64,000 nucleotides of DNA. Origin: Haloterrigena salifodinae (GTDB lineage: Archaea; Halobacteriota; Halobacteria; Halobacteriales; Natrialbaceae). The stretch is from assembly GCF_003977755.1 (NCBI RefSeq), contig NZ_RQWN01000002.1, positions 930,001 through 994,000 of the forward strand. Reading direction: 5' to 3'. The translations under genes were made by a program, and so were the position numbers. This document shows positions 1,170 through 37,925 of the stretch, in pieces; positions within the stretch are counted from its first letter, which is position 1; every line of letters starts with the position of its first letter. The notes beneath the pieces are model-generated. The model was not told the origin of the DNA. It saw only the letters and a list, made by a program, of their open reading frames with translations, and searched no databases.

Positions 1170-1688
1170 ATGACCGAACCGTCCGACGGACCCGATCCAG
1201 CGGCCGCGACCGACGAGACCTCGACGGTAGCGAGCGGCGACGCCGCGAGCCGCGAGCAGGACCCCGTCGTCGGCACCGAACGCGTCCTCCGGGTCGGCCA
1301 CGACCGACCGATCAGGATCAGCACCGGCCACCGGATCCGCCACCACGACGGCAAGTGCGCGCGCCCGCACGGCCACAACTACGAGGTCGCCGTCACCGTC
1401 GTCGGCGAACTCGCCGCGGAAGGCTGGGTCGCCGACAAGGGCGATATTACCGACGTCATCGACGAGTGGGATCACCGGTTCCTCCTCGAGGCGGGCGATC
1501 CGCTGATCGAGGCCTTCGAGGCCTCGGGCGACGGCGACGCGGTCGTCGTCCTCGAGCATCCGCCGACGGCGGAGGTGATGAGCGTGCTCTTAGAGCGCAA
1601 GCTCGCAGCTGCGCTCCCCGAGAACGTCTCAGACGTCCAGGTGCAGGTCAACGAGACCAGCGAACTCTGCGGGGGCGGCCGGTTCTGA
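1170..1688 (+). CDS. queD: 6-carboxy-tetrahydropterin synthase QueD
   Basis: QueD converts 7,8-dihydroneopterin triphosphate to 6-carboxy-5,6,7,8-tetrahydropterin, an early step to preQ0 for the archaeosine base of tRNA. Zinc ligands are visible as H54 in STGHR and H67/H69 in RPHGHNYEV. C63 in KCARPHGH is the catalytic cysteine, and the end carries ETSELCGGG. The first 40 residues are an acidic, low-complexity haloarchaeal extension, so the 172-residue length exceeds the roughly 120 of bacterial QueD. It leads the queD-queE-queC operon, one base before queE. A TTAAGTAA element around 1142-1149 is a plausible TATA box. Confidence 0.92.
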   Translation: MTEPSDGPDPAAATDETSTVASGDAASREQDPVVGTERVLRVGHDRPIRISTGHRIRHHDGKCARPHGHNYEVAVTVVGELAAEGWVADKGDITDVIDEWDHRFLLEAGDPLIEAFEASGDGDAVVVLEHPPTAEVMSVLLERKLAAALPENVSDVQVQVNETSELCGGGRF

Positions 1689-1689
1689 G

Positions 1690-2508
1690 ATGCCGGTCTC
1701 CGATTCCGTCGACCGCGACGGCGAGGGCGAGGACGCTCGAGACGGTTCGGGAACCCGCGGTGAGCGTCCCGACGACGGCCTCCCGATCAACGAACTGTTC
1801 TACTCGCTGCAGGGCGAGGGCACCCTCGCCGGCGTCCCGTCGGTGTTCGTCCGCACGAGCGGCTGTAACCTTCGGTGTTGGTTCTGCGACTCCTACCACA
1901 CCTCCTGGGAGCCGACCCACGCGTGGCTCGGCCTCGAGGAGATCCTCGCCGAGATCGAGTCCCACGACGCCGACCACGTCGTGCTCACGGGCGGCGAACC
2001 CCTGATCCACGAGGAGAGCGTCGCGCTGCTCGAAGCGCTCGACGATCGGGGCTATCACACCACCGTCGAGACCAACGGGACGATCGATCGCGACGCGCCG
2101 ATCGACCTCGCCTCGATCAGCCCGAAACTCGAGAGCAGCACGCCGACACCGGAGCGCGCGCCGGACGACGCCGACGAGGCCGACGCGGAGCGGTGGGCCG
2201 AGCGCCACGAGCGCGACCGGATCGATCTCGAGGCGCTGGCCGGTCTCGTCGAGGACTACGAGTTCCAGCTGAAGTTCGTCGTCACCGACGGCGACGATAT
2301 GCCCGAGATTCTCGACCTGCTCGTGGAGCTCCGGGACGTTGCGGACGTCCCGATCCGCGACGACGACGTCCTCTTGATGCCCGAAGGCGCGACTCGAGAG
2401 CGCCTCGCGGAGACCCGAACTCGCGTCGCCGACCTCGCGATGGAGCACGGCTTCCGGTACACCCCGCGGCTCCACGTCGACCTCTGGAACGACGCGCCCG
2501 AAACGTAG
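1690..2508 (+). CDS. queE: 7-carboxy-7-deazaguanine synthase QueE (radical SAM)
   Basis: QueE rearranges 6-carboxytetrahydropterin to 7-carboxy-7-deazaguanine (CDG). The radical-SAM cluster motif is CxxxCxxC at C59, C63 and C66 (CNLRCWFCDSYHT). INELFYSLQGEGTLAG precedes it, as in the family, and VVLTGGEPLIHE is the SAM-binding GGE motif. The protein has 272 residues, with an acidic insertion around 150-180 typical of haloarchaea. It starts one base after the queD stop, indicating translational coupling, and queC follows after 32 nt. The N-terminal 30 residues are poorly conserved, so a later start is conceivable. Confidence 0.93.
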   Translation: MPVSDSVDRDGEGEDARDGSGTRGERPDDGLPINELFYSLQGEGTLAGVPSVFVRTSGCNLRCWFCDSYHTSWEPTHAWLGLEEILAEIESHDADHVVLTGGEPLIHEESVALLEALDDRGYHTTVETNGTIDRDAPIDLASISPKLESSTPTPERAPDDADEADAERWAERHERDRIDLEALAGLVEDYEFQLKFVVTDGDDMPEILDLLVELRDVADVPIRDDDVLLMPEGATRERLAETRTRVADLAMEHGFRYTPRLHVDLWNDAPET

Positions 2509-2540
2509 CGACCGACGACCGTTCGACCACGAACACTACG

Positions 2541-3272
2541 ATGACCGACGCGACCACCGCAACTGACGGAGACGAATCGACCGAGAAACGCGCCGCCGTC
2601 CTCCTTTCGGGAGGCATGGACAGCGCCACCGCCGCCTACGAGGCCCGCGACCGGGGCTATGACATCTACGCCCTGCACACCTCCTACGGCCAGCGCACCG
2701 AGGACCGCGAACTCGAGTGCGCCCGCCGACTGGCCGACGAACTTGATGCCGCGGACTTTCTGCAGATCGAAACCGGGCACCTCTCGGCGATCGGTGCCTC
2801 GAGTCTCACCGACGACGAGATGGCCGTCGCGGACGCCGACATGGACAGCGACGAGATCCCCACCTCGTACGTCCCCTTCCGGAACGCGAACCTGCTCGCG
2901 ATGGCGGTCTCCTACGCCGAGGCCAACGACTGCGAGGCCGTCTTCATCGGCGCCCACAGCGAGGACTTCTCGGGATATCCGGACTGTCGTCCCGAGTTCT
3001 TCGAGGCCTTCGAGAACGTGGTCGACGTCGGGACGAAACCCGAGACCGACATCTCGATCGAAGCGCCGTTCGTCGAATGGTCGAAAACAGATATCGCCGA
3101 ACACGGCGTCGGTCTCGAGGTCCCCTACGAACATACCTGGAGCTGTTACCGTGAGAACGAACCCGCCTGTGGCACCTGCGACGCCTGCGCGTTCCGCCTG
3201 CAGGCGTTCCAGAACATCGGCGTCCGCGATCCTATCGAGTACGCCGAGCGGCCGTCGTACGTGGACGAATGA
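2541..3272 (+). CDS. queC: 7-cyano-7-deazaguanine (preQ0) synthase QueC
   Basis: QueC is the ATP-dependent ligase that converts CDG to preQ0, the substrate TgtA inserts at G15 of archaeal tRNA. The PP-loop ATP motif is LLSGGMDSATA (SGGMDS, residues 23-28). Further family blocks are YVPFRNANLLAMAVSYAE and FIGAHSEDFSGYPDCRPEFF. A zinc-binding set SCYRENEPACGTCDAC sits near the C-terminus. The ATG at 2541 gives 243 residues with a short acidic extension. The same frame is open much further upstream, but that part is antisense-style shadow over queE. No tgtA, arcS or folE copy is seen next to the operon. Confidence 0.94.
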   Translation: MTDATTATDGDESTEKRAAVLLSGGMDSATAAYEARDRGYDIYALHTSYGQRTEDRELECARRLADELDAADFLQIETGHLSAIGASSLTDDEMAVADADMDSDEIPTSYVPFRNANLLAMAVSYAEANDCEAVFIGAHSEDFSGYPDCRPEFFEAFENVVDVGTKPETDISIEAPFVEWSKTDIAEHGVGLEVPYEHTWSCYRENEPACGTCDACAFRLQAFQNIGVRDPIEYAERPSYVDE

Positions 3273-3359
3273 CCGGTTTTTGCGGGTGTAACTGAACGAG
3301 GATTTATCTCGGGATGTGTCCCCTCATATTTTATGGGCGGCCATGAGTAGTTGCTACCA

Positions 3360-5726
3360 ATGTACCAGCGGGCGGATCGTGACGACCGCCAGCGACCGCA
3401 GGCGCTCGGAATCGAGTCCGATCTCGAGTCTTCCCGGGGGAATCCGGCGTTTCACGGGCTGGTCGGATCGCCTGACGAGTCCGATCACGATCACGACGAT
3501 TCGACCGATCACGTCGCGCTCCTCTACGAGGACCGCGACGAGCAGTTCAGCGCCGTGATGCCCTTCGTCCGCCGCGGGCTCGAACGCGGCGAACGCTGTC
3601 TCTACATCGCCGACGAGAACGACAGAGCCGACGTCCTGTCCGCAATGCGGGAGTACGGCATCGACGTCGACGATGCCCTCGAGTCGGGCGCGCTCTCGGT
3701 GGTGACGCCCGCGGATACCTATCGTCGAACCGGCGAGTTCGACCGCGACGCGATGGTGCGGTTCTGGGAGGAGTCGCTCGCGGAGGCGACCGAGGAAGAC
3801 GACTTTACGGGTATCCGTGCGGCCGCCGAGATGACGTGGGCCCTGAACGACGGCGATACCGACCTCGATCACCTCGTCGAGTACGAGGCGATCCTCAACT
3901 CGATCTATGAGGGCGAGCCGTACGCCGTCTGCTGTCAGTACAACCGCGAGCGGTTCCCTGCCGACGTCATCTACGAGGTGATCCGCACGCACCCGCTGCT
4001 CGTCCACGACGGCGTCGTCTCGGAGAACATCTACTACACGCCCCCGGCGGAGTTCTTCGGCCCGGATCGGCCCGCTCGCGAGGTCGAACGGATGACGACC
4101 ACGTTGCGCGAGCGAACGATCGGGAACGCGGCCCTCGAGCACGCGACCGAGCGGTTCCGGAAGATCTTCGAGCACAGCCAGGACGCGATCTTCATCAACG
4201 ATCCGTACGCCGACGAGATCCTCGAGGCCAACCCGGCGGGCTGTGAGATGCTGGGCTACTCCCGCGAGGAACTGCTCGAACTCGGGCCGTCGGACTGCCA
4301 TCCCCACGAGATGGAGGCGTTCCGCGAGTTCGTCGGCACCGTCTTCGAGGAGGGTGCCGGCTGGACGGACGAGCTGAGCTGTCTCCCGAAGGTGGGCGAG
4401 CCGATTCCGGCGGAGCTCTCGGCGTCGAAGATCACGGTCGACGGTCGGCCGTGCATGCTCGCGATCGCCCGCGATATCAGCGAGCGGAAGGCACGCGAGC
4501 GCGCACAGCGGCGCCTCTACGAGATCGCCGCCGATCCCGAACGCTCGTTCAACGAGAAATTGCGGGCCATCTTCGACCTCGGCTGCGACCGGTTCGATCT
4601 CGAGCTCGGCGGGCTGGCCCGGATCGACCCCGAGACCGATCGGTTCGTCGTCGAGGCCGTCAGCGGCGACCACGAACACCTCCGACCGGGCGCCGAGGTT
4701 TCCCTCTCGGAGACCTACTGTCGCGTGTTTGCCGACGAGACGGACGAGGCCGAGAACGACGCGGCGACCGACACCGCGTCGATCACCGATCCCGAAGCCA
4801 CCGAGTTCGAGGGAACGACGGCCTACGAGGAGTTCGGCGTCGAGTCCTATTTCGGCACGCGGCTCTCGATCGCAGACGACCTCGACAGAACGTTCTTCTT
4901 CGTCTCGACTGCGCCCCGCGAGGAGCCCTTTACCGAGGCCGAGCGGACGTTCCTCGACCTGATGGGCCAGTGGGTCCGGTACGAACTCGAGCGCGAGCGC
5001 TATGAAGTGACGGTAGAGGAGACGATCGAGCGGCTCGAGCAGTCCAACGAGCGCCTCGAGCAGTTCGCCTACGCGGCCAGCCACGACCTCCAGGAGCCCC
5101 TGCGGATGGTCTCGAGCTACCTGCAACTGATCGAGAGCCGGTACGCCGACCGACTCGACGACGACGGCGAGGAGTTCATCGACTTCGCGGTCGACGGCGC
5201 CGAGCGGATGCGCGAGATGATCGACGGCCTGCTCGCATACTCCCGGATCGAGACGCGGGGCGAGCCGTTCGAACCGGTCGATCTCGAGGCCGTGATCGAC
5301 GACGTCCTTGCGGATCTCCGACTCCGAATCGCGGAGTCCAACGCCGAGGTCGCCGTCGGCGACCTGCCGACCGTCGCCGGCGACCGAAATCAGCTCCACC
5401 AGCTGTTTCAGAACCTGCTGACGAACGCGCTCGAGTACAGCGGCGACGAGCCGCCGCGAGTCGAGATCGCGGCCCGACGGGACGGTCGGCAGTGGATCGT
5501 CTCGGTCAGCGACGAGGGGATCGGCATCGAGCCCGGGGAACAGGAGCGGATCTTCGAGGTGTTCGAACGGCTGCACAGCCGCGCGGAGTACGACGGCACC
5601 GGCATCGGCCTCGCGCTCTGTCAGCGGATCGTCGAGCGCCACGGCGGTGACATCTGGGTCAACTCCGAACCCGGCGAGGGATCGACCTTCTCCGCGGCGT
5701 TCCCCGATCCGGTCGTTCGGGAATGA
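3360..5726 (+). CDS. MEDS-PAS-GAF sensor histidine kinase
   Basis: The protein has 788 residues and no clear membrane segment, so it is probably cytosolic. An N-terminal MEDS domain (about 45-230; HVALLYEDRDEQFSAV, ERCLYIADEN) is the methanogen/methylotroph DcmR-type sensory module. A PAS domain follows (about 255-375; FEHSQDAIFIND, ANPAGCEMLGYSREEL). Next come a GAF domain (about 385-545), a HisKA domain with YAASHDLQEPLRMVSSYL (phospho-acceptor His in SHDL) and a HATPase with QNLLTNALEYS, DEGIGIEPGE and GTGIGLALCQ. The ligand is unknown and no response regulator is adjacent. The ATG at 3360 is preferred over the TTG three codons earlier. CATATTTTATG at 3325-3335 is a weak TATA box. Confidence 0.88.
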   Translation: MYQRADRDDRQRPQALGIESDLESSRGNPAFHGLVGSPDESDHDHDDSTDHVALLYEDRDEQFSAVMPFVRRGLERGERCLYIADENDRADVLSAMREYGIDVDDALESGALSVVTPADTYRRTGEFDRDAMVRFWEESLAEATEEDDFTGIRAAAEMTWALNDGDTDLDHLVEYEAILNSIYEGEPYAVCCQYNRERFPADVIYEVIRTHPLLVHDGVVSENIYYTPPAEFFGPDRPAREVERMTTTLRERTIGNAALEHATERFRKIFEHSQDAIFINDPYADEILEANPAGCEMLGYSREELLELGPSDCHPHEMEAFREFVGTVFEEGAGWTDELSCLPKVGEPIPAELSASKITVDGRPCMLAIARDISERKARERAQRRLYEIAADPERSFNEKLRAIFDLGCDRFDLELGGLARIDPETDRFVVEAVSGDHEHLRPGAEVSLSETYCRVFADETDEAENDAATDTASITDPEATEFEGTTAYEEFGVESYFGTRLSIADDLDRTFFFVSTAPREEPFTEAERTFLDLMGQWVRYELERERYEVTVEETIERLEQSNERLEQFAYAASHDLQEPLRMVSSYLQLIESRYADRLDDDGEEFIDFAVDGAERMREMIDGLLAYSRIETRGEPFEPVDLEAVIDDVLADLRLRIAESNAEVAVGDLPTVAGDRNQLHQLFQNLLTNALEYSGDEPPRVEIAARRDGRQWIVSVSDEGIGIEPGEQERIFEVFERLHSRAEYDGTGIGLALCQRIVERHGGDIWVNSEPGEGSTFSAAFPDPVVRE

Positions 5727-6387: not shown

Positions 6388-7617
6388 CTACCACGCCGCC
6401 TCGAGGATCCCCTCGATCTCCTCGACCGACGGCTCGAGTCTCGGCGGCGCGTTCGCCATGAACGCGTCGTCGAGGATCGCCTCCGCGACGGCGGCGAACT
6501 CCTCGGGCTGGGGGCCGTCGACCTCGCGTAACTGCGCGGGGAGGTCGAGCCCGTCCCGAATCTCCGCGACCGCCTCGACGACCGCCGCACCGCGGTCCGC
6601 GGCGTCGCCGACGCCGAGCGCGTTCGCGAGCATCCCAGATCGCGCGTCCACGTCCTCCCGTTCGAAGAGATACTCGAGGACGTGCGGGACAACGATCCCG
6701 TGGGCGGCCCCCTGCTGGACGTCGTAGCCGGCCGTCAGCCCGTGGCCGAAGGCGTGGACGATCGAGAGCGTCGTCTCGCCGGGCCGGGAGATGCCGTACT
6801 GGACGAGGACGATCCCCTCGAGGAGCGTCTCGAACGTTCCTACGTCGCGGTCGCCGTCGCCGAACGCCCGGAGACCGTCCTCGAGTTTCTCGAGGCCGTG
6901 TCTGGCTGTCGCGTCGGTCACGGGCGTCGCGTTGGCCGCGTAGAGCGTCTCGATGCCCTTGTCGAAGCCGTTCATCGCCGAGCCGGTGAGGACCGAGTCC
7001 GGCGTGGTCGCGACCAGTTCGGGGTCGTAGACCGCCGCCGCGGGCATCAGGTCGGGGTGGGAGACGCCGCCGCTGACCGTCTCGTCGACGGGACCCTCGT
7101 CGGGATCGGCAGCGATGCCGGCGACGTTCGAGAGGTCGGCGCCCGCGAGCGTCGTCGGCACCGCGACGACCGGCACCAGCCCCTCGTCGGGGACCGGAAG
7201 CGTCCCCGTCTCGGCGAGTTCCCGGCCGGCGGCTGCCGGGCCGTAGCCGTTGGCCGCGAGGACGCTGATAACCGTCGCGACGTCGAGGCTGCTGCCGCCG
7301 CCGACGCTCACGATCGCGTCGGCGTCTTCGGCCTCGAGGCGGTCGCGCCCCGCCAGCGCCGTTGAGAGCCGCTTCGCCGCCGACGTCTCGTCGAACACGC
7401 CGGCCAGCCGGTCTCCCAGCCCCGATTTCACCGGTTCGATCACCGTCGGCGTCTCCCCCACCGTCGAGCCGCAGACAACCAGCGCGCGCTCGAGACCCAA
7501 GGCCTCGAGTTCGGCCCCGAGGTCGTCGACGCTGCCGGCGCCGAAGCGGATCGTCGCCGGGTCGTAGTCGAAACGGAAGGACGGATCGCGGTCGCTTTCG
7601 CTCGAGCGAGAACTCAT
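6388..7617 (-). CDS. Iron-containing alcohol dehydrogenase family protein
   Basis: This is an NAD(P)-dependent, metal-dependent (group III) dehydrogenase of 409 residues, close to the family norm. The N-terminal dinucleotide fold carries VSVGGGSSLD (GGGSS at 106-110) and VAVPTTLAGADLS, a variant of the usual PTTxGTGSE. The metal ligands seem complete: D219 in NGFDKGIE, H288 and H292 in VHAFGHGL, and H306 in AAHGIVVPH. The substrate cannot be read from the sequence; butanol, glycerol, lactaldehyde and maleylacetate enzymes all share these motifs. It is monocistronic and convergent with the membrane gene at 5814. Confidence 0.88.
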   Translation of the reverse strand: MSSRSSESDRDPSFRFDYDPATIRFGAGSVDDLGAELEALGLERALVVCGSTVGETPTVIEPVKSGLGDRLAGVFDETSAAKRLSTALAGRDRLEAEDADAIVSVGGGSSLDVATVISVLAANGYGPAAAGRELAETGTLPVPDEGLVPVVAVPTTLAGADLSNVAGIAADPDEGPVDETVSGGVSHPDLMPAAAVYDPELVATTPDSVLTGSAMNGFDKGIETLYAANATPVTDATARHGLEKLEDGLRAFGDGDRDVGTFETLLEGIVLVQYGISRPGETTLSIVHAFGHGLTAGYDVQQGAAHGIVVPHVLEYLFEREDVDARSGMLANALGVGDAADRGAAVVEAVAEIRDGLDLPAQLREVDGPQPEEFAAVAEAILDDAFMANAPPRLEPSVEEIEGILEAAW

Positions 7618-7749
7618 GGGCGGTCGTACGGATCGCGGGCTGTTAAAAGCGAGAACAGCGGAGATCCGGGTACGAGGTGTCGGTTCGGGATCCGATTCGC
7701 CGGTTCGTTCGCGTCCGGCGGTCCGCTCGTCGTCGTCGGACTCGCGGCG

Positions 7750-8388
7750 TTAGTGGCCGACGCCGAGATACGCGTGGACCGCCTCGTCGTTTTCCAGTTC
7801 GTCGGCGAACGCGACGGCGAAGTCCTCCATCGAGATGTAGCTCTCGCCGTCCTCGTCGGCGACGAGTTGGCGGTCCGCGGTGCGGTACTCGCCCGTCCGC
7901 TCGCCGGGCTCGATCACCGCCGCCGGTCCGAGGTAGGTCCACCGGAGATCGTCCGCCTCGCTGATGACCCCGTACGCGTCGATGGCCGCCTGCGCGAGGG
8001 GCTCGAGTTCGTCCGGGAACTCCTCGGTCTCGATGAGCATCGTGTCCGGGCCGACGTACAGGCCGCCCGCACCGCCGGTCCAGACCAGGCGGTCGGTGTC
8101 CGTCCGCTGGAGTCCCTCAACGACGGTCTCGGCCATCTCGACGAGGACGTCGACGTCCGCGTCGTCCGACGGGCCGAGCGCCGACGCGACGGCGTCGTGA
8201 TCCGCCGCCAGGGACGCGATTTCGTCCGCGTCGGTCGCGTCGGCGGCGACCGCCTCGAAGTCAGGGTCGTCGATCTCGTCGATCTCGCCGCTGCGGGACG
8301 TTCCCGTTACTTCGTGACCGCGCTCGAGGAGTTCGCTCGCGATTCGTCGTCCGATTCGGCCGCTCGCACCGAGTAGAAGTACGTTCAT
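7750..8388 (-). CDS. NAD(P)H-binding atypical SDR / NmrA-like protein
   Basis: The start at 8388 gives MNVLLLGASGRIGRRIASEL, so the GxxGxxG dinucleotide motif sits at residues 7-13 as in atypical short-chain dehydrogenases (SDR a5 / YwnB-like). Other features are VTGTSRSGEI after strand 2, LVWTGGAGGLYVG for the middle strand and a C-terminal AVAFADELEN block. There is no YxxxK catalytic pair, as expected for the NmrA-like branch, which senses redox state or reduces quinones. The 212-residue length is normal. It is divergent from an HxlR regulator, a frequent arrangement in which the regulator controls this gene. A GTG further upstream (8424) would add an unconserved tail. Confidence 0.85.
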   Translation of the reverse strand: MNVLLLGASGRIGRRIASELLERGHEVTGTSRSGEIDEIDDPDFEAVAADATDADEIASLAADHDAVASALGPSDDADVDVLVEMAETVVEGLQRTDTDRLVWTGGAGGLYVGPDTMLIETEEFPDELEPLAQAAIDAYGVISEADDLRWTYLGPAAVIEPGERTGEYRTADRQLVADEDGESYISMEDFAVAFADELENDEAVHAYLGVGH

Positions 8389-8490
8389 GATCGTGGGGTA
8401 GGTGATTTCGATGGCAGTCGGCACGCGATACGCAGATGAGCAACCGGACAGCCGGTCACATCACCATACCTGCTATTGGGACGTAACTGT

Positions 8491-8498
8491 GATATAGT
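8491..8498 (+). promoter_or_regulatory. TATA box of the HxlR-family regulator
   Basis: GATATAGT lies 33-40 nt before the ATG at 8531. TGTGA next to it (8488-8492) pairs with TCACA at 8456-8460. This is a possible half-site pair for the HxlR dimer in the divergent promoter region, although its 27-nt spacing is wide. Confidence 0.45.
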
Positions 8499-8530
8499 TC
8501 AGCGAACGTCGGTATGAGCAAGTCACACCG

Positions 8531-8890
8531 ATGTCACCGCACTCGGATCTCGAAGCGAAATACGCCAGCTGTCCGGTGATCAAGACCCTCGAGGAGGTCG
8601 GCTCGCGATGGCGGCTGACCGTCATTCACGTCCTCCGAGAGGGCGAACTCCGCTTCAACGAACTCAAGCGCGCGACGGACGCGAACTCGCAGACGCTGTC
8701 ACGCGTACTGGACGACCTCGAGGAGAAGGGCTACGTCGAGCGGCGAGTCGAGGAGGAGAGCCCGATCGCCGTCTACTACTCGCTGACGCCGAAGGGCGCG
8801 GACCTCCTCTCGGCGTTCGACGAGATCCTCGAATGGGGCGAGAAGTGGATCGACGACGACCGCGCCGGCGGCGAGGAGCGCGACCCGTAG
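8531..8890 (+). CDS. HxlR-family winged-helix regulator
   Basis: The product has 119 residues. CPVIKTLEEVGSRWRLTVIH, LREGELRFNELKRAT, SQTLSRVLDDLEEKGYVERR and VYYSLTPKGADL are the classic HxlR blocks, running from helix 1 through the recognition helix to the wing. C14, immediately before PVIKTL, corresponds to the cysteine that makes many HxlR/YodB/QorR proteins thiol- or quinone-responsive. The divergent NAD(P)H-binding gene at 7750-8388 is the likely target, suggesting control of a quinone or aldehyde detoxification enzyme. That regulatory link is inferred from gene order only. Confidence 0.9.
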   Translation: MSPHSDLEAKYASCPVIKTLEEVGSRWRLTVIHVLREGELRFNELKRATDANSQTLSRVLDDLEEKGYVERRVEEESPIAVYYSLTPKGADLLSAFDEILEWGEKWIDDDRAGGEERDP

Positions 8891-9094
8891 CGAGACGAAG
8901 CGCTCGGTACGTGCCTCGAGCGGCGACGGCGGGCGTGACGATGCGCACCCCTCCGTGTGTAACGATGCTGTGGCTCCGCACTGTTACTGCTGTCTTGTCG
9001 CGGCGCCGCGACTCGATCGCTACGCCCGTGGCTCTGCAACGAGACGGCGCCGGCGAGAAAAATCGATCTCGGTTGTCGATCGCGACTCGAGAGT

Positions 9095-9119
9095 CGGACT
9101 CGCTTCGAATTCGAGTCCG
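9095..9119. terminator. Hairpin in the 3' region of the rps3ae operon
   Basis: CGGACTCG and CGAGTCCG form a perfect 8-bp stem with a 9-nt loop. It lies 12 nt beyond the rps3ae stop, between convergent transcripts. There is no U-tract, so a terminator role is tentative. The rest of 8891-9131 shows no gene. Confidence 0.35.
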
Positions 9120-9131
9120 AGTCTGGGCCGA

Positions 9132-9770
9132 TTATTCGGCCGCGACGTCGTCTTCGTCGACGTCGACCGCGGTCGCTTCCTCTTCGGCGACCTCTTCGGG
9201 GTGGGCCTCGAGGGTAGCCTTCTGGATCTCGACGCGGCGCAGCGGGTAGATCGTCTTGGCTTCGCCGTAAATCCCCGAGGAGAGTCGACCCTCGACGACG
9301 CTGTCGATGAGTTCCTCGAAGGAGCGCTCGGCGGCGGCCTCCTCGATCATCTCGACCATCTGGTTGCGGATGGCCTTCTCCTGGCTCGCGTCGGCCTTCT
9401 TGGTCGTAAAGGCGACGGGCTGGATCTGGACGCGGTAGTCGTCCGTCGTGAGGACGGTGACGTACGCCTCGACCTTCGAGGCGCCCCGTCGGACCAGCGA
9501 ACGCAGGTAGTCCCGAGTCAGGGAGTGCTCGACGAACTCCGTGTACGCCGAGTCGCTGCCGACGTCGGTGATCTTGAAGGTCAGCTTGGTGTTGTTCTCG
9601 CTGGCGTTGTTGTTGAGTTCGCCGAGCGTCGTTTCGATGGTTCGGTCGTAGACCTTTTCCGGTTCGTCAGCGGGGGTTTCGCCGAGTTCCTGGCGGTCGA
9701 ACTGCTCGGGTGCCAGGACGGTGTACCACCGCTTCTCCTGTTTCGCGCGTGAAACTGATCGTTCACTCAT
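9132..9770 (-). CDS. rps3ae: 30S ribosomal protein S3Ae (eS1)
   Basis: This archaeal/eukaryotic small-subunit protein has 212 residues and starts MSERSVSRAKQEKRWYTVLA. Conserved blocks are TIETTLGEL, KLTFKITDVGSDSAYTEFV, HSLTRDYLRSLVRRGASKVE and KTIYPLRRVEIQK. The C-terminal 20 residues are a highly acidic tail, usual for haloarchaeal ribosomal proteins. It is the last gene of the leftward rps15 / recJ-like / pcc1 / rps3ae cluster, and its ATG overlaps the pcc1 stop by four bases (ATGA), indicating coupled translation. Confidence 0.97.
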   Translation of the reverse strand: MSERSVSRAKQEKRWYTVLAPEQFDRQELGETPADEPEKVYDRTIETTLGELNNNASENNTKLTFKITDVGSDSAYTEFVEHSLTRDYLRSLVRRGASKVEAYVTVLTTDDYRVQIQPVAFTTKKADASQEKAIRNQMVEMIEEAAAERSFEELIDSVVEGRLSSGIYGEAKTIYPLRRVEIQKATLEAHPEEVAEEEATAVDVDEDDVAAE

Positions 9771-31037: not shown

Positions 31038-33143
31038 TCAGTCACCCACCGAGTCGGTGTTCGCCGAGGCCGGGAACTCGTCGTCGTCCAGCGCGGCCGC
31101 CTCCGACGCGGCCGGTCCGTCCTCGCTCTCCGGGAAGTAACACGCCGCCCGGTGGGTCTCGTCGCCGGTCTCGTCGATAGCCGGTTCGGCCTCCCGGCAC
31201 GACTCCTGAGCCTTCGGACAGCGCGGGGCGAACGCACAGCCCGAGGGGAGGTCGACCGGGTCCGGCGGCTCGCCGTCGAGCAAGACGCGAGTCCGATCCG
31301 CGGTCGGGTCCTTCTCCGGCGCGGCCGACAGCAGCGACGCGGTGTACGGATGCTCGGGTTGGGCCGCGACGCGGTCGACGTCGCCCTCTTCGATGACTCG
31401 CCCGAGGTACATGATGGCCAGCCGATCCGAGACCTGCATCAGGCTCGCGAGGTCGTGAGAGATGTAGACGATCCCGATATCCTCGGCGTCGGCCAGCCCG
31501 CGCAGCAGATTCAGCAGGTTGACCTTCAGCGAGACGTCCAGCATCGACGCCGGCTCGTCGCAGATCAGGAAGTCGGGATCCAACACGAGTGCCTTGGCGA
31601 CCGCCACGCGCTGGCGCTGCCCGCCGGAGAGCTCGTGGGGGTACTTGTCGAGGAACGTTTCGGCGGGGGTCAGCCCCACCTTCTCGAGCGTCTCGACGAT
31701 AGCCCGCTCCTTCTCGTCGGTGCGGTAGTCGTGGATCGTCAGCGGCTCGCCGACGAGCTTGCGGACGGTCTGGCGCGGGTTCAGCGAGTCGAAGGGGTCC
31801 TGGAAGACGATCTGGACCTTCCGTCGGAACTCCGTGAGGTTGCCGTCTTGGTAGTACTCGTAGGGTTCCCCATCGAACGTCAGGTCGCCGCCGGTCGGCT
31901 CCTCGAGGAGGGCCATCGTCTCGCCGAGTGTCGACTTCCCGCAGCCGGACTCGCCGGCGACGCCGAGCACCTCCGAGCGCCGGACCGACAGCGAGACGCC
32001 GTCGACCGCCTTCACGCGGTCGGGGTCCGCGCCGCGGAACTTGTCCAGCAGCGGCTGACTCTGTTCGTAGTGTTTCTCCAGGTCGTCGGTCTCGAGGATA
32101 ACTTCGCCGCGCTCGGAGTCGGCGTCGACGTCGTCGGGGATGCCCCACGTCTCCGGCTCGTCGGCGTCCTGTCTGAGTTGGGCCGCCTCCTTGACGCGGT
32201 GGCAGGCCGAGCGGTGGTTCCGGTTGGGGAGGTCGACCAAGTCCGGATGGGACTCCCCGCACTCGTCGGTAGCGAACGGACATCGGTCCCGAAACACGCA
32301 GGCCGTCGGCTCCTGGTTCAGGTTCGGCGGCGAGCCAGGGATCGCGACGGGGTCCTCGTCCCCTTCGCCGATCTCCGGGAAGGAGTTCTTCAGCCCCATC
32401 GTGTAGGGATTGGTCGGGTTGACGAGCACGTTGTCGACGCTGCCCTGTTCCATTACCTTCCCGCCGTAGAGGATCGACAGCTCGTCGCAGGTCTCGGCGA
32501 TGACACCGATCTCGTGGGTGATCAGGAGCAGCGAGCTGTCCATCCGTTCTTGGATCTCGAGGATCTTGTCGATGATCTTGTCCTGGACGATGACGTCCAG
32601 CCCAGTCGTCGGCTCGTCGGCGATGATGAGGTCGGGCTCGAGGGCCAGGGCCATCGCGATGGTGACCCGCTGGCGCATCCCGCCGGAGAACTCGTGGGGG
32701 TAGTCGTCGATCCGGTCGGGGTCGAGGCCGACGATCTCGAACAGTTCGCGGACGCGATCGCGCGCTTTCGCGTCCGTGACGTTGCGGTGGGTGTGGATCG
32801 CCTGGGCGATCTGGTCCCCGGTCGACATCACCGGATCGAGCGAGTCCATCGCGCTCTGTGGGATGTAGGCGATATCCTCCCAGAGGATATCCCGGCGCTC
32901 GGCGTCCGAGAGCGTCGTGAGGTCCGTTCCCTTGAACTCGATCGTCCCGCTCTCGACGGTGCCGTTGCCGGGGAGCAGCCCCAGCAGCGCCTCAGCGGCG
33001 GTGGACTTCCCGGAGCCGGATTCGCCGGCGAGGCCGTAGTTGACGCCCTCGTCGATGGTGAAGGAGACGTCGTTGACGGCGTGGACTGGTTCGTCGTCGG
33101 TCGCGTACGTGACTGTCAGGTCTTCGACGTTGAGTAGCGTCAT
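31038..33143 (-). CDS. Fused DppD-DppF peptide ABC transporter ATPase
   Basis: The product has 701 residues and two complete nucleotide-binding domains. The first carries GESGSGKST near residue 40, FSGGMRQRVTIAMAL and LIIADEPTTGLD. The second carries GESGCGKST, LSGGQRQRVAVAKAL and FLICDEPASMLD. Each is followed by the oligopeptide-type C-terminal extension with its cysteine motif (ACVFRDRCPFATDEC and GCAFAPRCPKAQESC). Both motors of the heterodimeric Dpp/Opp systems are thus on one chain. The ATG at 33143 overlaps the dppC-like stop. The upstream frame to 33254 is non-conserved. The substrate is a di/oligopeptide or similar compound, by family. Confidence 0.94.
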   Translation of the reverse strand: MTLLNVEDLTVTYATDDEPVHAVNDVSFTIDEGVNYGLAGESGSGKSTAAEALLGLLPGNGTVESGTIEFKGTDLTTLSDAERRDILWEDIAYIPQSAMDSLDPVMSTGDQIAQAIHTHRNVTDAKARDRVRELFEIVGLDPDRIDDYPHEFSGGMRQRVTIAMALALEPDLIIADEPTTGLDVIVQDKIIDKILEIQERMDSSLLLITHEIGVIAETCDELSILYGGKVMEQGSVDNVLVNPTNPYTMGLKNSFPEIGEGDEDPVAIPGSPPNLNQEPTACVFRDRCPFATDECGESHPDLVDLPNRNHRSACHRVKEAAQLRQDADEPETWGIPDDVDADSERGEVILETDDLEKHYEQSQPLLDKFRGADPDRVKAVDGVSLSVRRSEVLGVAGESGCGKSTLGETMALLEEPTGGDLTFDGEPYEYYQDGNLTEFRRKVQIVFQDPFDSLNPRQTVRKLVGEPLTIHDYRTDEKERAIVETLEKVGLTPAETFLDKYPHELSGGQRQRVAVAKALVLDPDFLICDEPASMLDVSLKVNLLNLLRGLADAEDIGIVYISHDLASLMQVSDRLAIMYLGRVIEEGDVDRVAAQPEHPYTASLLSAAPEKDPTADRTRVLLDGEPPDPVDLPSGCAFAPRCPKAQESCREAEPAIDETGDETHRAACYFPESEDGPAASEAAALDDDEFPASANTDSVGD

Positions 33144-34060
33144 TGGTCGGTCTGGATTTCGGGGTTGATGACTTCCTCGTAGGCTCGGCCGATGAGGAAC
33201 ACCGAGGTGGTTATCGCGGCGATACCGACGGCCGGTGGGAGCACCCACCACCACGCGACGCGCATGTTACCCGACGCGAACACCTGCCGGAGCATCCGGC
33301 CCCAGCTGGTCATCGTCGGATCGCCGAAGCCGAGGAAGGCGAGACTCGCCTGTGCGGCGATCGCCCAGGCGACGCCGTAGGCGGTGTAGAGGAAGCCGAT
33401 CGGCAGGACGTTCGGCGCGACGTGGTACAGCATCGTCCGCAGGTCGCTCGCGCCGCTGGCTCGAGCGGACTTGACGAACGTCCGCTCGCGGACCGACAGC
33501 ACCTCCGAACGCACGACCCGCGCCGGCATCTTCCAGAGGAAGGCGGCGATGATCGCCGTGATCAGCCAGATGTTCGGCGTCATGAACGTCAGCAGCAGCA
33601 ACGCCATGGGCATGAACGGCAGTGAGAACGTCAGGTCGGTCAGACGCATCAGGAGTTCGTCGACCCAGCCGCCGTAGTAGCCGCTGACGACGCCGACGCT
33701 GAAGCCGAGCGCGCCCGTACCCAGTCCGCCGAACAGGCCGACGATGAGCGTCGGCCGCGCGCCAGCGAGGAACTGGCTCAGCACGTCCTTCCCGTAGGCC
33801 GTCGTTCCGAAGAACGCGTCAGCGCTCGGGGCGGCGAGCCGGAGCACGGAGCCGCCGTCGCCGCGGACGGTGTGTTCGATCGGGTCGTGCGGGGCCAGGT
33901 ACGGCCCGAACAGCCCGAGGAAGACGAACGCCGCGACGACGAGCATGCCGGCGAAGGCCATCGGGTCCTGTCGCAGGAACGCGAACTGATCGCGGACGGT
34001 CGTCCACAGTGCGTCGACTCGCTTGTACAACTCCGCCTTGGGTTTCGTTTCGGTGCTCAT
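33140..34060 (-). CDS. Peptide ABC transporter permease (DppC type)
   Basis: The product has 306 residues from the ATG at 34060. An N-terminal OppC_N helix (AFAGMLVVAAFVFLGLFGPY) with APHDPIEHT is followed by the BPD_transp_1 domain of five helices. The EAA-type loop reads VLSVRERTFVKSARASGASD followed by VAPNVLPIGF, which docks to the ATPase. It overlaps the dppB-like gene (34057-34060) and the ATPase gene (33140-33143) by ATGA, so the three are co-translated. The upstream part of the open frame to 34231 overlaps the dppB-like gene and is not conserved. Confidence 0.94.
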   Translation of the reverse strand: MSTETKPKAELYKRVDALWTTVRDQFAFLRQDPMAFAGMLVVAAFVFLGLFGPYLAPHDPIEHTVRGDGGSVLRLAAPSADAFFGTTAYGKDVLSQFLAGARPTLIVGLFGGLGTGALGFSVGVVSGYYGGWVDELLMRLTDLTFSLPFMPMALLLLTFMTPNIWLITAIIAAFLWKMPARVVRSEVLSVRERTFVKSARASGASDLRTMLYHVAPNVLPIGFLYTAYGVAWAIAAQASLAFLGFGDPTMTSWGRMLRQVFASGNMRVAWWWVLPPAVGIAAITTSVFLIGRAYEEVINPEIQTDQ

Positions 34061-35052
34061 GCGGTTCCACCTCCGCTCGTCGAGACGGTCGGATCGAAGT
34101 ACGCGTAGAGGACGTCCGCAAGCAGATTCGCCAGGATAACCGCAAGCGCCATGATGAAGACCGCGGCCTGGACCAGCGGGTAGTCCTGCTGCTGGATGGC
34201 CAGGACGAGTTCGCGGCCGATACCGGGCCAACTGAAGACCACCTCGAGCAGGATCAGTCCTTGGAAGATCATCCCCAGCCGCAGCGTGAAGTAGGTCAGG
34301 ATGGGCAGCATCGAGTTCCGACCCGCGCGGGCCAACTGCTCCATCTCGGTGAGTCCCTTCGCCCGGTGGAGCTTGAGGAACTCCGAGCCGCGCTTCTCGA
34401 CGACGCCGTTACGGGCCAGCAACAGGAAGTCGCCGCTGTAGTAGAGGACGGCGATGGTAAACGGGAGGATGTAGTGGTGAAGGAAGTCGAGCGAGCCGAA
34501 CGTCTCGATGTAACCGTCCGGCGTCGCCCGGATCGAGCGCATCCCGAGCGCGGGGACGATCTCCAGGTTGTACGCGAAGACGATGATGAAGAAGATCGCC
34601 GTGATGAACACCGGCGTCGAGCGCAGCAGCGTCGTCGAGACGATGCTGAACTTCTCGAGGCGGCTGCCCCGGTTCCAGCCGGCGTACATGCCCAGTACCG
34701 AACTCAGGATCGCCGTCGTCACCAGCGCGGGCACCAGCAGGATCAGCGAGTTGATCAGCCGCGGCTCGAGGACGTCCCAGACCGGCTGGCTCCGCAGGAT
34801 GGAGTAGCCGAACTGGAAGGTCAGCAGGCTCCCGAGGTAGTTGACGTACTGGACCCAGATCGACTGATCGAGGCCGTACATCGCCCGGATCTCGTCGATC
34901 TGCTCCTGGTTGAGGTTCCCCGAGGTGACGAGCGCCTCGAAGGGGCTCCCTGGCAGCAGCCGGAGGACGACGAAGATGACCGAGACCGCGACCAGCGTCA
35001 GCAGGACGGAGATCGCGAGCCGCTTGAGCAGGAACCGCTGGAATTTGCTCAT
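34057..35052 (-). CDS. Peptide ABC transporter permease (DppB type)
   Basis: The product has 331 residues. MSKFQRFLLKRLAISVLLTL is the typical first helix of DppB, then LLPGSPFEALVTSGNLNQEQ and YGLDQSIWVQYVNYLGSLLT. The transmembrane domain has six helices. The EAA loop is SEFLKLHRAKGLTEMEQLAR. The ATG at 35052 is preferred to a GTG two codons earlier. The preceding 187 nt to the binding-protein gene contain no gene and could carry a hairpin that lowers permease expression relative to the binding protein, as in many ABC operons; I see no strong stem there. Confidence 0.93.
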   Translation of the reverse strand: MSKFQRFLLKRLAISVLLTLVAVSVIFVVLRLLPGSPFEALVTSGNLNQEQIDEIRAMYGLDQSIWVQYVNYLGSLLTFQFGYSILRSQPVWDVLEPRLINSLILLVPALVTTAILSSVLGMYAGWNRGSRLEKFSIVSTTLLRSTPVFITAIFFIIVFAYNLEIVPALGMRSIRATPDGYIETFGSLDFLHHYILPFTIAVLYYSGDFLLLARNGVVEKRGSEFLKLHRAKGLTEMEQLARAGRNSMLPILTYFTLRLGMIFQGLILLEVVFSWPGIGRELVLAIQQQDYPLVQAAVFIMALAVILANLLADVLYAYFDPTVSTSGGGTA

Positions 35053-35239
35053 CGGCACTCACCCGCGGTATCGCGGTCGGTCGCCGGCCGCTTTCTCGCG
35101 CCGGCGTCGCCGTGCTCGAGGGACGCGCGCTCGGTTCGAGCGGCGGCGCGGTCGGGGTGTCGGTTCGCCTCGAATCGGGTCCGTTCCCGCGACGGACGCG
35201 GGTGTCGGTCGGTGGTGTGGTACATTGGGTTCTGGCTGC

Positions 35240-37147
35240 TCATGAGAAGTCGGACTGGCCGAGTTCCGTGCGGCGTTTGTTGGTGTTCCCGGGCTGGAGC
35301 CGTTCGACGAACGCGCCCCACGCCTCGCCGTTGGGGAACCGCAGGTTGCCGTCGTCGTCCCAGGTGTAACCCGCTCGCTCGAGGACGGTTCGCGCTTCTT
35401 CGACGTCGTAGCTGTAGTGGGTCGTCTCGGAGTTGTGCCACTGGGTGAGCGGCGAGATCGGGTTCTCGCCGCTCGGGACCGTCGCCTGTCCGTACAGGAA
35501 GTCGTCGACGAACCCCTGCGAGTCGACCGACTTCGCCAGCGCGACGCGGAACTCCTTGTCTCGGATCGGCGGACAGGAGAACATGAGCTTCGTATCGAGC
35601 GGCGCGTAGCTCCCGGTCGACAGCTGCTCGATCCCGTCGGTCTCGGCCGCGCGGTCGGCCTGCAGGGTCGAGAGCGTCGTCCCGATGGCGTCGATCGATC
35701 CGCTCTGGAGCGAACCGATCAGCGCGTCGACGTTGCTCACGTTGATCCAGATGACGCTCTCGACGCCGGGGCCGCGTTCGGCCTGGTCGCCCAGCGCGTC
35801 GGCCCGCCAGTCGTCGTCGAACATCCAGTGGCCCTCGTTGCGCGAGGCCTCGAACCGGGTCCCCTGCTCCCAGTCTTCGAACTGGAAGGGACCGGTGCCG
35901 ACGGGGGCGTCCGGGTTGTGCTGGGACGGGTTGTCGACGTCCTCCCACCGGTGTTTCGGGAGGATGACGCTCCGGACGACCCGCTGGGTCATGAACGAGG
36001 CGTCGGGGTTCGACAGGTTGAATCGTACCTCGTGATCGCCGAGCACCTCGACGGACTCGATCGGCTCGTAGAACGGCACTTGGCTCGTCGAGGAGTACTC
36101 CTTGTACAGTTCGACGGTGAACTTCACGTCCTCGGCGGTGAACGGCTCGCCGTCGTGCCACTCGACGCCCTCGCGCAGCGCGAGTTCCACGGTCGTATCG
36201 TCGACGAAACCGCCGCCGGTCGCCAGTGCGGGGACCACGTCCAAATCGGGCGTCGCGTCGAACAATCCGTCGTAGATGAACGTGAGTCGATTGGCCTCCG
36301 CGCCGCCGGCGGCCCACGGCAGGTTCAGCGAGTTCATCGACGTGGTGACGCCCTTGACGTAGGTCCGGTTGTCCGTCTCGGGTTGGAGGTTAACCTCCGT
36401 CCAGACGAACGAGTCCATCGTCGGGCCGTTGCCCGGCGTCTCCACGTAGCCGCTCCACCGCTCCGTGTTCACTGCCGTGATGATGTCCGGAAAGAGCGTG
36501 ATGAGCGCCCCGACGTCCTCGGCGAAAATCTCCTGCGCTCGATCGACCAGTTCCTCTCGCTTAGCCCGGTCGGTCGTCTGGGCCTGTTCGGTGAGCACCT
36601 TCTGGAGCTCCGGGTGGTAGTAATTATCGTAGTTCGAGAGCGAGCCCTCGGTCCGGCGCATTAACAGCGGGTTGGGATCGAGTCCCCGCTGCGGGTCGGG
36701 CCCGTGCGTACTCATCGACATGATCGCTTCGAGTCCGCGCGCTTCCCAGCTCTGGGCGTAGAGCTGGTTCAGCGGACGGTCGTTGAGTTCGACGGCGATG
36801 CCCAAATCGTCGAGCCCTTGCTTGACCATCAACGCGTGCTCGCGCATCCACGGATCGTCCTCGCTCGAGAACTCGACGGGGAACCGATCGAGCACCGCGC
36901 CCGCCGTCGCGCTGTAGTCAAGCGGCGGCGAGTCGGCGTCGATCGTCTCCCATTCGCGCCAGTACTGCGTCTCGACCGTTTCCGGCACTCCGTCGGGGAC
37001 GTCCGGCTCGAGGCTGGTGCCGCGACTGCCGCTACAGCCCGCGAGCACGCTCGTCCCGAGCGCCGCGGCGGCCGTAGCGACGTAGCCGCGTCGCGTGAGT
37101 CGGGCGCCACCCTCGGAGCGCGATCTATCATGATTTTCTTCGCTCAT
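35240..37147 (-). CDS. Permuted family-5 peptide-binding lipoprotein of the ABC transporter
   Basis: The product has 635 residues. The leader LTRRGYVATAAAALGTSVLA with C38 makes it a Tat lipoprotein. The segment order is unusual. Residues about 65-245 (MREHALMVKQGLDDLGIAVE, YYHPELQKVLTEQAQTTDRA, WSGYVETPGNG) correspond to the normal C-terminal lobe. Then comes the usual N-terminal lobe with VELALREGVEWHDGEPF near 320-336 (normally near residue 100). The chain ends with YDVEEARTVLERAGY, which normally leads into the C-lobe. This is a circular permutation relative to DppA/OppA. It is transcribed before the permease genes and after the Bat-like regulator. Confidence 0.92.
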   Translation of the reverse strand: MSEENHDRSRSEGGARLTRRGYVATAAAALGTSVLAGCSGSRGTSLEPDVPDGVPETVETQYWREWETIDADSPPLDYSATAGAVLDRFPVEFSSEDDPWMREHALMVKQGLDDLGIAVELNDRPLNQLYAQSWEARGLEAIMSMSTHGPDPQRGLDPNPLLMRRTEGSLSNYDNYYHPELQKVLTEQAQTTDRAKREELVDRAQEIFAEDVGALITLFPDIITAVNTERWSGYVETPGNGPTMDSFVWTEVNLQPETDNRTYVKGVTTSMNSLNLPWAAGGAEANRLTFIYDGLFDATPDLDVVPALATGGGFVDDTTVELALREGVEWHDGEPFTAEDVKFTVELYKEYSSTSQVPFYEPIESVEVLGDHEVRFNLSNPDASFMTQRVVRSVILPKHRWEDVDNPSQHNPDAPVGTGPFQFEDWEQGTRFEASRNEGHWMFDDDWRADALGDQAERGPGVESVIWINVSNVDALIGSLQSGSIDAIGTTLSTLQADRAAETDGIEQLSTGSYAPLDTKLMFSCPPIRDKEFRVALAKSVDSQGFVDDFLYGQATVPSGENPISPLTQWHNSETTHYSYDVEEARTVLERAGYTWDDDGNLRFPNGEAWGAFVERLQPGNTNKRRTELGQSDFS

Positions 37148-37271: not shown

Positions 37272-37925
37272 TCACTCCCGCGGACCGTAGATGAGTTCGA
37301 GGAGGGTTCGCTCCGCGGTCCGCAGTCGTTCGCTCGCCGTCGACTGTGCGATCTCGAGCTCGTCGGCGAGTTCGGTCGCCGACGTCTCTCGCGGGATGTC
37401 GAAGTAGCCGTTCTCGTAGGCCGTCTCGAGGACCGCCAACTGCTCGTCGGTGAGCTTCGAGACGAGGACTTCCGTTAATCGTCCGCTGTCGAGCGGTTCG
37501 CCGGGGTCCTCGTTTTGGGTGACCGACAGCAGTTCGAACTCGCCGAGCGTCTCCTGGACCTCGTCGGCCATCGCCCGGAACTGATCCCAGTCGCGGGTCG
37601 TCACCACGGCCTCGAAATCGTCGTTCTGGAGGACGATCCGGTTCGGAATCGCCTCCTGTCGCAGGACGAGACTCAGGATGAACGGGTACGATTCGTTGGC
37701 CAGGATCGTCAGCCGGCGAATCTCGAGGTCGTCCGACGCGGTCGGAATCTCGCTGTCGTAGAACAGCGACACGCCGGAAATCTCCTCGACGACGGCGTCC
37801 GGATCGAAGGCGGCGTTCGACGTGACGGTCAGGGACTCGATCCACGTGCCGTCTTCGACGTAGAACGCGTTGTCGAGTTCGATGCTTCGGACGTCGTCCA
37901 GCTCCCGCTGGAGCTTTGCCATCAC
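37272..37925 (-). CDS. Bat-like HTH10 transcriptional regulator
   Basis: The product has 217 residues from the GTG at 37925; an ATG follows one codon later. The N-terminal two-thirds is the haloarchaeal Bat-type sensory region (FYVEDGTWIESLTVTSNAAF, IPNRIVLQNDDFEAVVTTRD). The C-terminus is the bacterio-opsin-activator HTH (LTDEQLAVLETAYENGYFDI, ATELADELEIAQSTASERLR). It lies directly upstream of the peptide transporter operon on the same strand and is its likely regulator. The start is uncertain: coding-like sequence extends about 17 codons further upstream to an in-frame TAG, without an ATG, GTG or TTG. Confidence 0.85.
   Translation of the reverse strand: MMAKLQRELDDVRSIELDNAFYVEDGTWIESLTVTSNAAFDPDAVVEEISGVSLFYDSEIPTASDDLEIRRLTILANESYPFILSLVLRQEAIPNRIVLQNDDFEAVVTTRDWDQFRAMADEVQETLGEFELLSVTQNEDPGEPLDSGRLTEVLVSKLTDEQLAVLETAYENGYFDIPRETSATELADELEIAQSTASERLRTAERTLLELIYGPRE

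Follow-up and report, generated by a model that had tools for sequence, protein, structure and literature searches.

RESULTS

The locus and its genes

The 64,000-nucleotide stretch of Haloterrigena salifodinae DNA that was analyzed (the window) carries a gene for a solute-binding lipoprotein of family 5 (SBP_bac_5), followed in the same operon by genes for the other components of an ABC importer (Table 1). The two BPD_transp permeases and OppD/F-type ATPases that define such an operon were found at the locus, and this neighborhood, already pointed out in a sequence-only reading of the window, was conserved next to permuted orthologues of the binding protein. A gene for a BAT/HTH_10-type regulator (37272-37925, minus strand) lies directly upstream of the binding-protein gene. 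Residues 1-42, which include the signal region, were modeled with a pLDDT below 50, and alignment of relatives found the extension at residues 43-84 in the closest haloarchaeal members and mostly missing from the bacterial ones.

Table 1. Coordinates of the binding-protein gene, its parts and its operon in the window, and of binding-protein genes at four compared loci (L numbers)
Feature	Position	Strand	Basis
Circularly permuted SBP_bac_5 solute-binding lipoprotein, 635 aa	35240-37147	-	ORF, Pfam, HMMs, predicted model
Signal region, residues 1-38	37034-37147	-	RR motif TRRGYVA (Tat-like) and lipobox LAGC ending at Cys38, by motif only
Linker and N-terminal extension preceding block B, residues 43-84	36896-37021	-	Alignment of relatives
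Block B, residues 85-245, corresponding to the C-terminal part of OppA/DppA (DppA ~342-506)	36413-36895	-	PDB profile search, fragment model
Block A, residues 253-605, corresponding to the N-terminal part of OppA/DppA	35333-36391	-	Pfam, phmmer, fold search (Z 21-24)
C-terminal tail (new C-terminus), residues 606-635, and stop codon	35240-35332	-	Kept in close orthologues (alignment)
Permease, DppB/OppB type (BPD_transp_1), next gene of the operon	34057-35058	-	Pfam; kept beside permuted orthologues
Permease, DppC/OppC type (OppC_N and BPD_transp_1), start codon uncertain	33140-34231	-	Pfam; conserved
Two fused ABC ATPase domains (DppD-DppF like) and oligo_HPY, start codon uncertain	31038-33254	-	Pfam; conserved
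L286, permuted orthologue	6827-8386	-	
L288, normal-order orthologue	8000-9550	+	
L219, binding protein	1214-3520	-	
L220, binding protein	1714-3864	+	

Order of the two blocks in the chain

The window protein matched PF00496 (SBP_bac_5) significantly (E=1.9e-54), with residues 304-612 covering only positions 2-288 of the 368-position profile. HMMs of block B (~95-245) and block A (~285-600), built solely from the four permuted sequences that this genome encodes, found B (95-245) followed by A (286-600) in the window protein. In Escherichia coli DppA and OppA, both kept out of the model building, the same HMMs found A followed by B (in DppA 60-368, then 386-524; E=1.9e-12). A PDB-wide profile search with residues 85-256 (43 relatives) led to DppA 357-493 (E=4e-18), as well as to AppA 361-505 and OppA 374-484, all of them C-terminal parts. 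With phmmer, residues 270-613 aligned to Thermotoga TM1223 26-370, and residues 171-213 gave an off-diagonal match to TM1223 453-495 that was weak and not significant alone. None of the best 60 PDB matches was a solved chain carrying both blocks in the permuted order. Because its order is B-A instead of the A-B that is canonical for SBP_bac_5, the window protein was classed as a permuted variant.

An AlphaFold model of the whole protein (mean pLDDT 87.3, pTM 0.85) and fold searches with the model and with its N-terminal fragment both returned the two-lobed periplasmic-binding-protein fold of the OppA/DppA type. Residues 253-605 superposed on DppA 1-345 and OppA 1-361 with Z scores of ~21-22 (best chain, 24.2). 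The fragment comprising residues 85-256, modeled alone (pLDDT 81), matched OppA 355-514 and DppA 342-506 (VIA-align; Z 9.5-10.3), and its best fold match was another OppA entry (Z 11.0). Since both parts of OppA/DppA are matched at opposite ends of the model, they are present in swapped order, and the fold predicted for the window protein is that of an ordinary two-lobed binding protein. The new chain ends lie in the C-lobe, where the cut comes after the YDxEEAxxxLExAGY helix and before the beta strand that follows it, and the old C-terminus runs on into the old N-terminus through a short linker at about residues 245-257.

These results bear out the circular permutation proposed in the sequence-only reading, which had placed a cut between two segments and a join of the old termini: HDGEPF and DDLGIAVE occupy residues 331-336 and 113-120 of the translation, as had been read, and the segments map to OppA/DppA parts in swapped order, the outcome also of the superposition on OppA that had been suggested as a check. 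Two details needed correction. The stretch YDVEEARTVLERAGY, which had been taken as the end of the chain, does lie near the C-terminus, with 41 more residues (TWDDDGNLRFPNGEAW...) following it. The proposal of permuted lobes holds for the swapped block order and fails for whole lobes, the cut being inside the C-lobe. We regard it as close to certain that the gene product is a solute-binding lipoprotein of family 5 (cluster C) that has undergone a natural circular permutation and belongs to a Dpp/Opp-type ABC importer.

Constraint and ligand

Orthologues of the window gene differed at 3-11% of non-synonymous and 21-43% of synonymous sites (pN 0.03-0.11 vs pS 0.21-0.43), which indicates strong purifying selection. 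Across archaea and bacteria, permuted genes of the window clade adjoined DppB/DppC-like permeases and ATPases. Selection and conserved operon context support the earlier suggestion that the permuted protein is probably functional, and homology, predicted fold, operon and constraint together point to a role as the binding protein of an importer. The SBP_bac_5/cluster C family binds many ligands. A dipeptide ligand was considered by analogy with DppA, whose residues R383 and D436 contact the dipeptide (PMC12136057); the window protein has retained neither of them, so this assignment was not supported.

Distribution of permuted proteins

Three further permuted proteins are encoded in the same genome (L009:4036-5811, L009:11779-13422 and L012:1906-3729), together with binding proteins of normal order (L011, L013). 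At L013:1896-7832, on contig 6, three very similar normal-order binding-protein genes (604 aa) stand in tandem. A search of the haloarchaeal class gave matches to both blocks in at least ~97 of 292 genomes (counted by eye), and collinear relatives were found in Alphaproteobacteria, Trueperaceae, Burkholderiaceae, Brevibacillus and other Bacillota, and Desulfurococcaceae. The fetched loci, which are not an unbiased census, contained 153 proteins of normal order, 88 permuted, two otherwise permuted and one tandem. Among the NCBIfam equivalog models run on eight permuted proteins, none reached its cut-off. For three Bacillota loci (L210, L211 and L212), profile matches were flagged with one internal TGA, and open ORFs of 563-594 aa were recovered nonetheless. 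A normal-order relative of one own-genome permuted paralogue is split over two overlapping frames (L223:4706-6417, minus strand), reflecting a frameshift or a sequencing error.

Repeated changes of order

A tree was built by quick search from blocks A and B put in one common order (100 rows, LG+C20 mixture). It placed 27 permuted rows, including the window protein, in one clade (98% SH-aLRT) that spans haloarchaea, a Desulfurococcaceae archaeon, Alphaproteobacteria, Burkholderiaceae and Bacillota. Further permuted rows sat within normal-order clades; two of the permuted proteins (L137 and L195) were on long branches, and their placement is uncertain. By a fewest-change count, the order label changed at least seven times on the tree, with four changes forced by starred branches.

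Four cases of permutation were clear, the first being the window clade itself. The second consists of the own-genome paralogue L009:11782-13422 and its relatives, for which L233:5301-7025 is a normal-order orthologue with the same operon neighbors. BLAST between the two gave directly the pair of off-diagonal blocks that the sequence-only reading had expected from a dot-plot (239-546 against 70-378, 47%; 45-233 against 385-571, 41%), and in the paralogue the cut comes one helix before the site used by the window type. The third is a Bacillota group (L210, L264 and others) standing beside the normal-order L268 at 58%/45% identity; its permuted chain ends in ...YDPEKAKQLLREAGYRVD, the point at which L268 goes on with ...AGYEKG-FNMVF.

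The fourth case lies within one archaeal genus, from another family of the same phylum, where L286 is permuted and L288 normal. Their amino-acid identity was 86%/83%, their DNA was 79-80% identical over both swapped blocks, and their lipoprotein signals were similar. A second permuted genome of this genus (L287) had the same order and the same start of block B. In the permuted genomes of the genus, the binding-protein gene is divergent from the permease operon, whereas in normal-order relatives from other genera of the family (L290, L291) it lies upstream of the permeases and is co-directional with them. Apart from these four cases, the Thermoproteota proteins of L219 and L220 showed the order A2-B-A1, with the cut ~190 positions into block A.

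It is thus very likely that family 5 has been permuted repeatedly and independently, in at least four events, mostly at one hot-spot loop of the C-lobe, with the Thermoproteota type cut inside block A in addition. The view that permuted proteins form a large, conserved and repeatedly invented class, in which the window protein is no lone oddity, is supported.

Alternative explanations

Considered alone, the single Pfam stretch at residues 304-612 is what would be expected if a binding protein of normal order carried an unrelated additional domain at its N-terminus and were truncated at its C-terminus, the arrangement that the sequence-only reading had itself set against its proposal. The PDB profile match and the fragment fold led us to reject this model, to which we attach practically no weight: in sequence the N-terminal segment is a homologue of the last third of OppA/DppA, and it folds like that third; the remainder of the chain matches their first two thirds; and in the fourth case the segment stands at the opposite end of normal-order orthologues that are more than 80% identical. 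An assembly or annotation artefact, in which tandem normal genes were collapsed or misassembled into a B-A gene, has a starting point in the tandem copies of such genes that do exist. Close orthologues in many independent genomes nevertheless show the identical order and junction, the gene is under strong purifying selection, and in the genus of the fourth case two independent assemblies, one of them a single contig, have the same junctions. Given this recurrence across assemblies, the artefact was rejected as having a negligible chance of being correct.

Somewhat more can be said for one ancient permutation of all these proteins, with the interleaving of orders ascribed to tree artefact, recombination or reversal to the normal order. 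Most permuted proteins do fall in one well-supported clade, most are cut at the same loop, and the long branches of L137 and L195 leave some placements open to question. Against this stands the AU test, which rejected a single clade of all permuted rows (p=5e-11, with the two differently cut proteins included in the permuted group). The cut sites also differ, that of the own-genome paralogue being one helix earlier than the window type and those of the Thermoproteota proteins lying inside block A, and the close identity of permuted and normal proteins inside one genus likewise speaks against a common ancient event. A single origin was therefore rejected and appears improbable compared with repeated, independent permutation.

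DISCUSSION

The window protein resembles DppA/OppA/AppA/NikA-type proteins (PF00496, cluster C) in its homology along the whole chain, its predicted fold, its operon with permeases and ATPases, and its lipoprotein signal; it differs from them in its swapped blocks and in having both chain ends within the C-lobe. As a rule, natural circular permutations are recognized when very distant homologues are compared, by which time the event lies far back and its steps are hard to reconstruct. The ~85%-identity pair, the tandem intermediate and the reuse of nearly the same loop render mechanism, tolerance and functional effect directly testable here. If the recurrence is true, the family amounts to a natural experiment in which permutation can be followed through many degrees of divergence.

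Among binding proteins, circular permutants have been reported for glycine-betaine-binding proteins, molybdate-binding proteins and CysB (CPSARST, PMC2395249). Those examples share with ours a natural circular permutation within periplasmic-binding-protein folds; they concern other solute-binding families at below 24% identity, whereas here orthologues with up to ~86% identity differ in order and several independent events occurred in one family. Chains of the OpuAC/ProX (glycine-betaine-binding) type were absent from the matches listed in sequence and fold searches with the window protein. We found no description of permuted family-5 or cluster C proteins in the open-licence PMC literature, the part covered here, so a report elsewhere is possible. 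What is surprising beside the known permuted binding proteins is the recurrence, the within-genus case and the tandem intermediate. Across a large class of importer proteins, the rearrangement is masked by automatic annotation, which yields one C-terminal Pfam stretch. For biosensor design, permuted binding proteins that occur in nature are also available as scaffolds.

In permutation by duplication, the expected intermediate is an A-B-A-B tandem. A single archaeal protein of 1011 aa (L221:855-3887, plus strand) contains two complete SBP_bac_5 units in this order; its domains are the same, each in normal order and head-to-tail, so that unlike the window protein it is not permuted, and trimming of such an architecture could give a permuted gene. 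This tandem fusion, found elsewhere, and the general scheme suggest a duplication route, in which an in-frame A-B-A-B fusion would form first and the first A behind the signal peptide, together with the last B, would then be lost to give signal-B-A. In the genus of the fourth case, the divergent orientation of the permuted gene, set against co-directional normal-order relatives, makes a more complex rearrangement possible.

In the proposed import cycle, a solute, either peptide-like or another family-5 ligand, would be bound in the cleft through the usual Venus-flytrap movement and handed to the adjacent permeases. In lipoprotein members, the lipid anchor would now sit on a C-lobe strand rather than on the N-lobe. 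In Gram-negative permuted members, such as L050 from Aliihoeflea, the signal, judged by eye, seems to be of the ordinary cleavable kind. The Thermoproteota proteins of L219 and L220 are extended at the C-terminus, and their extension finishes with a hydrophobic stretch resembling a membrane anchor.
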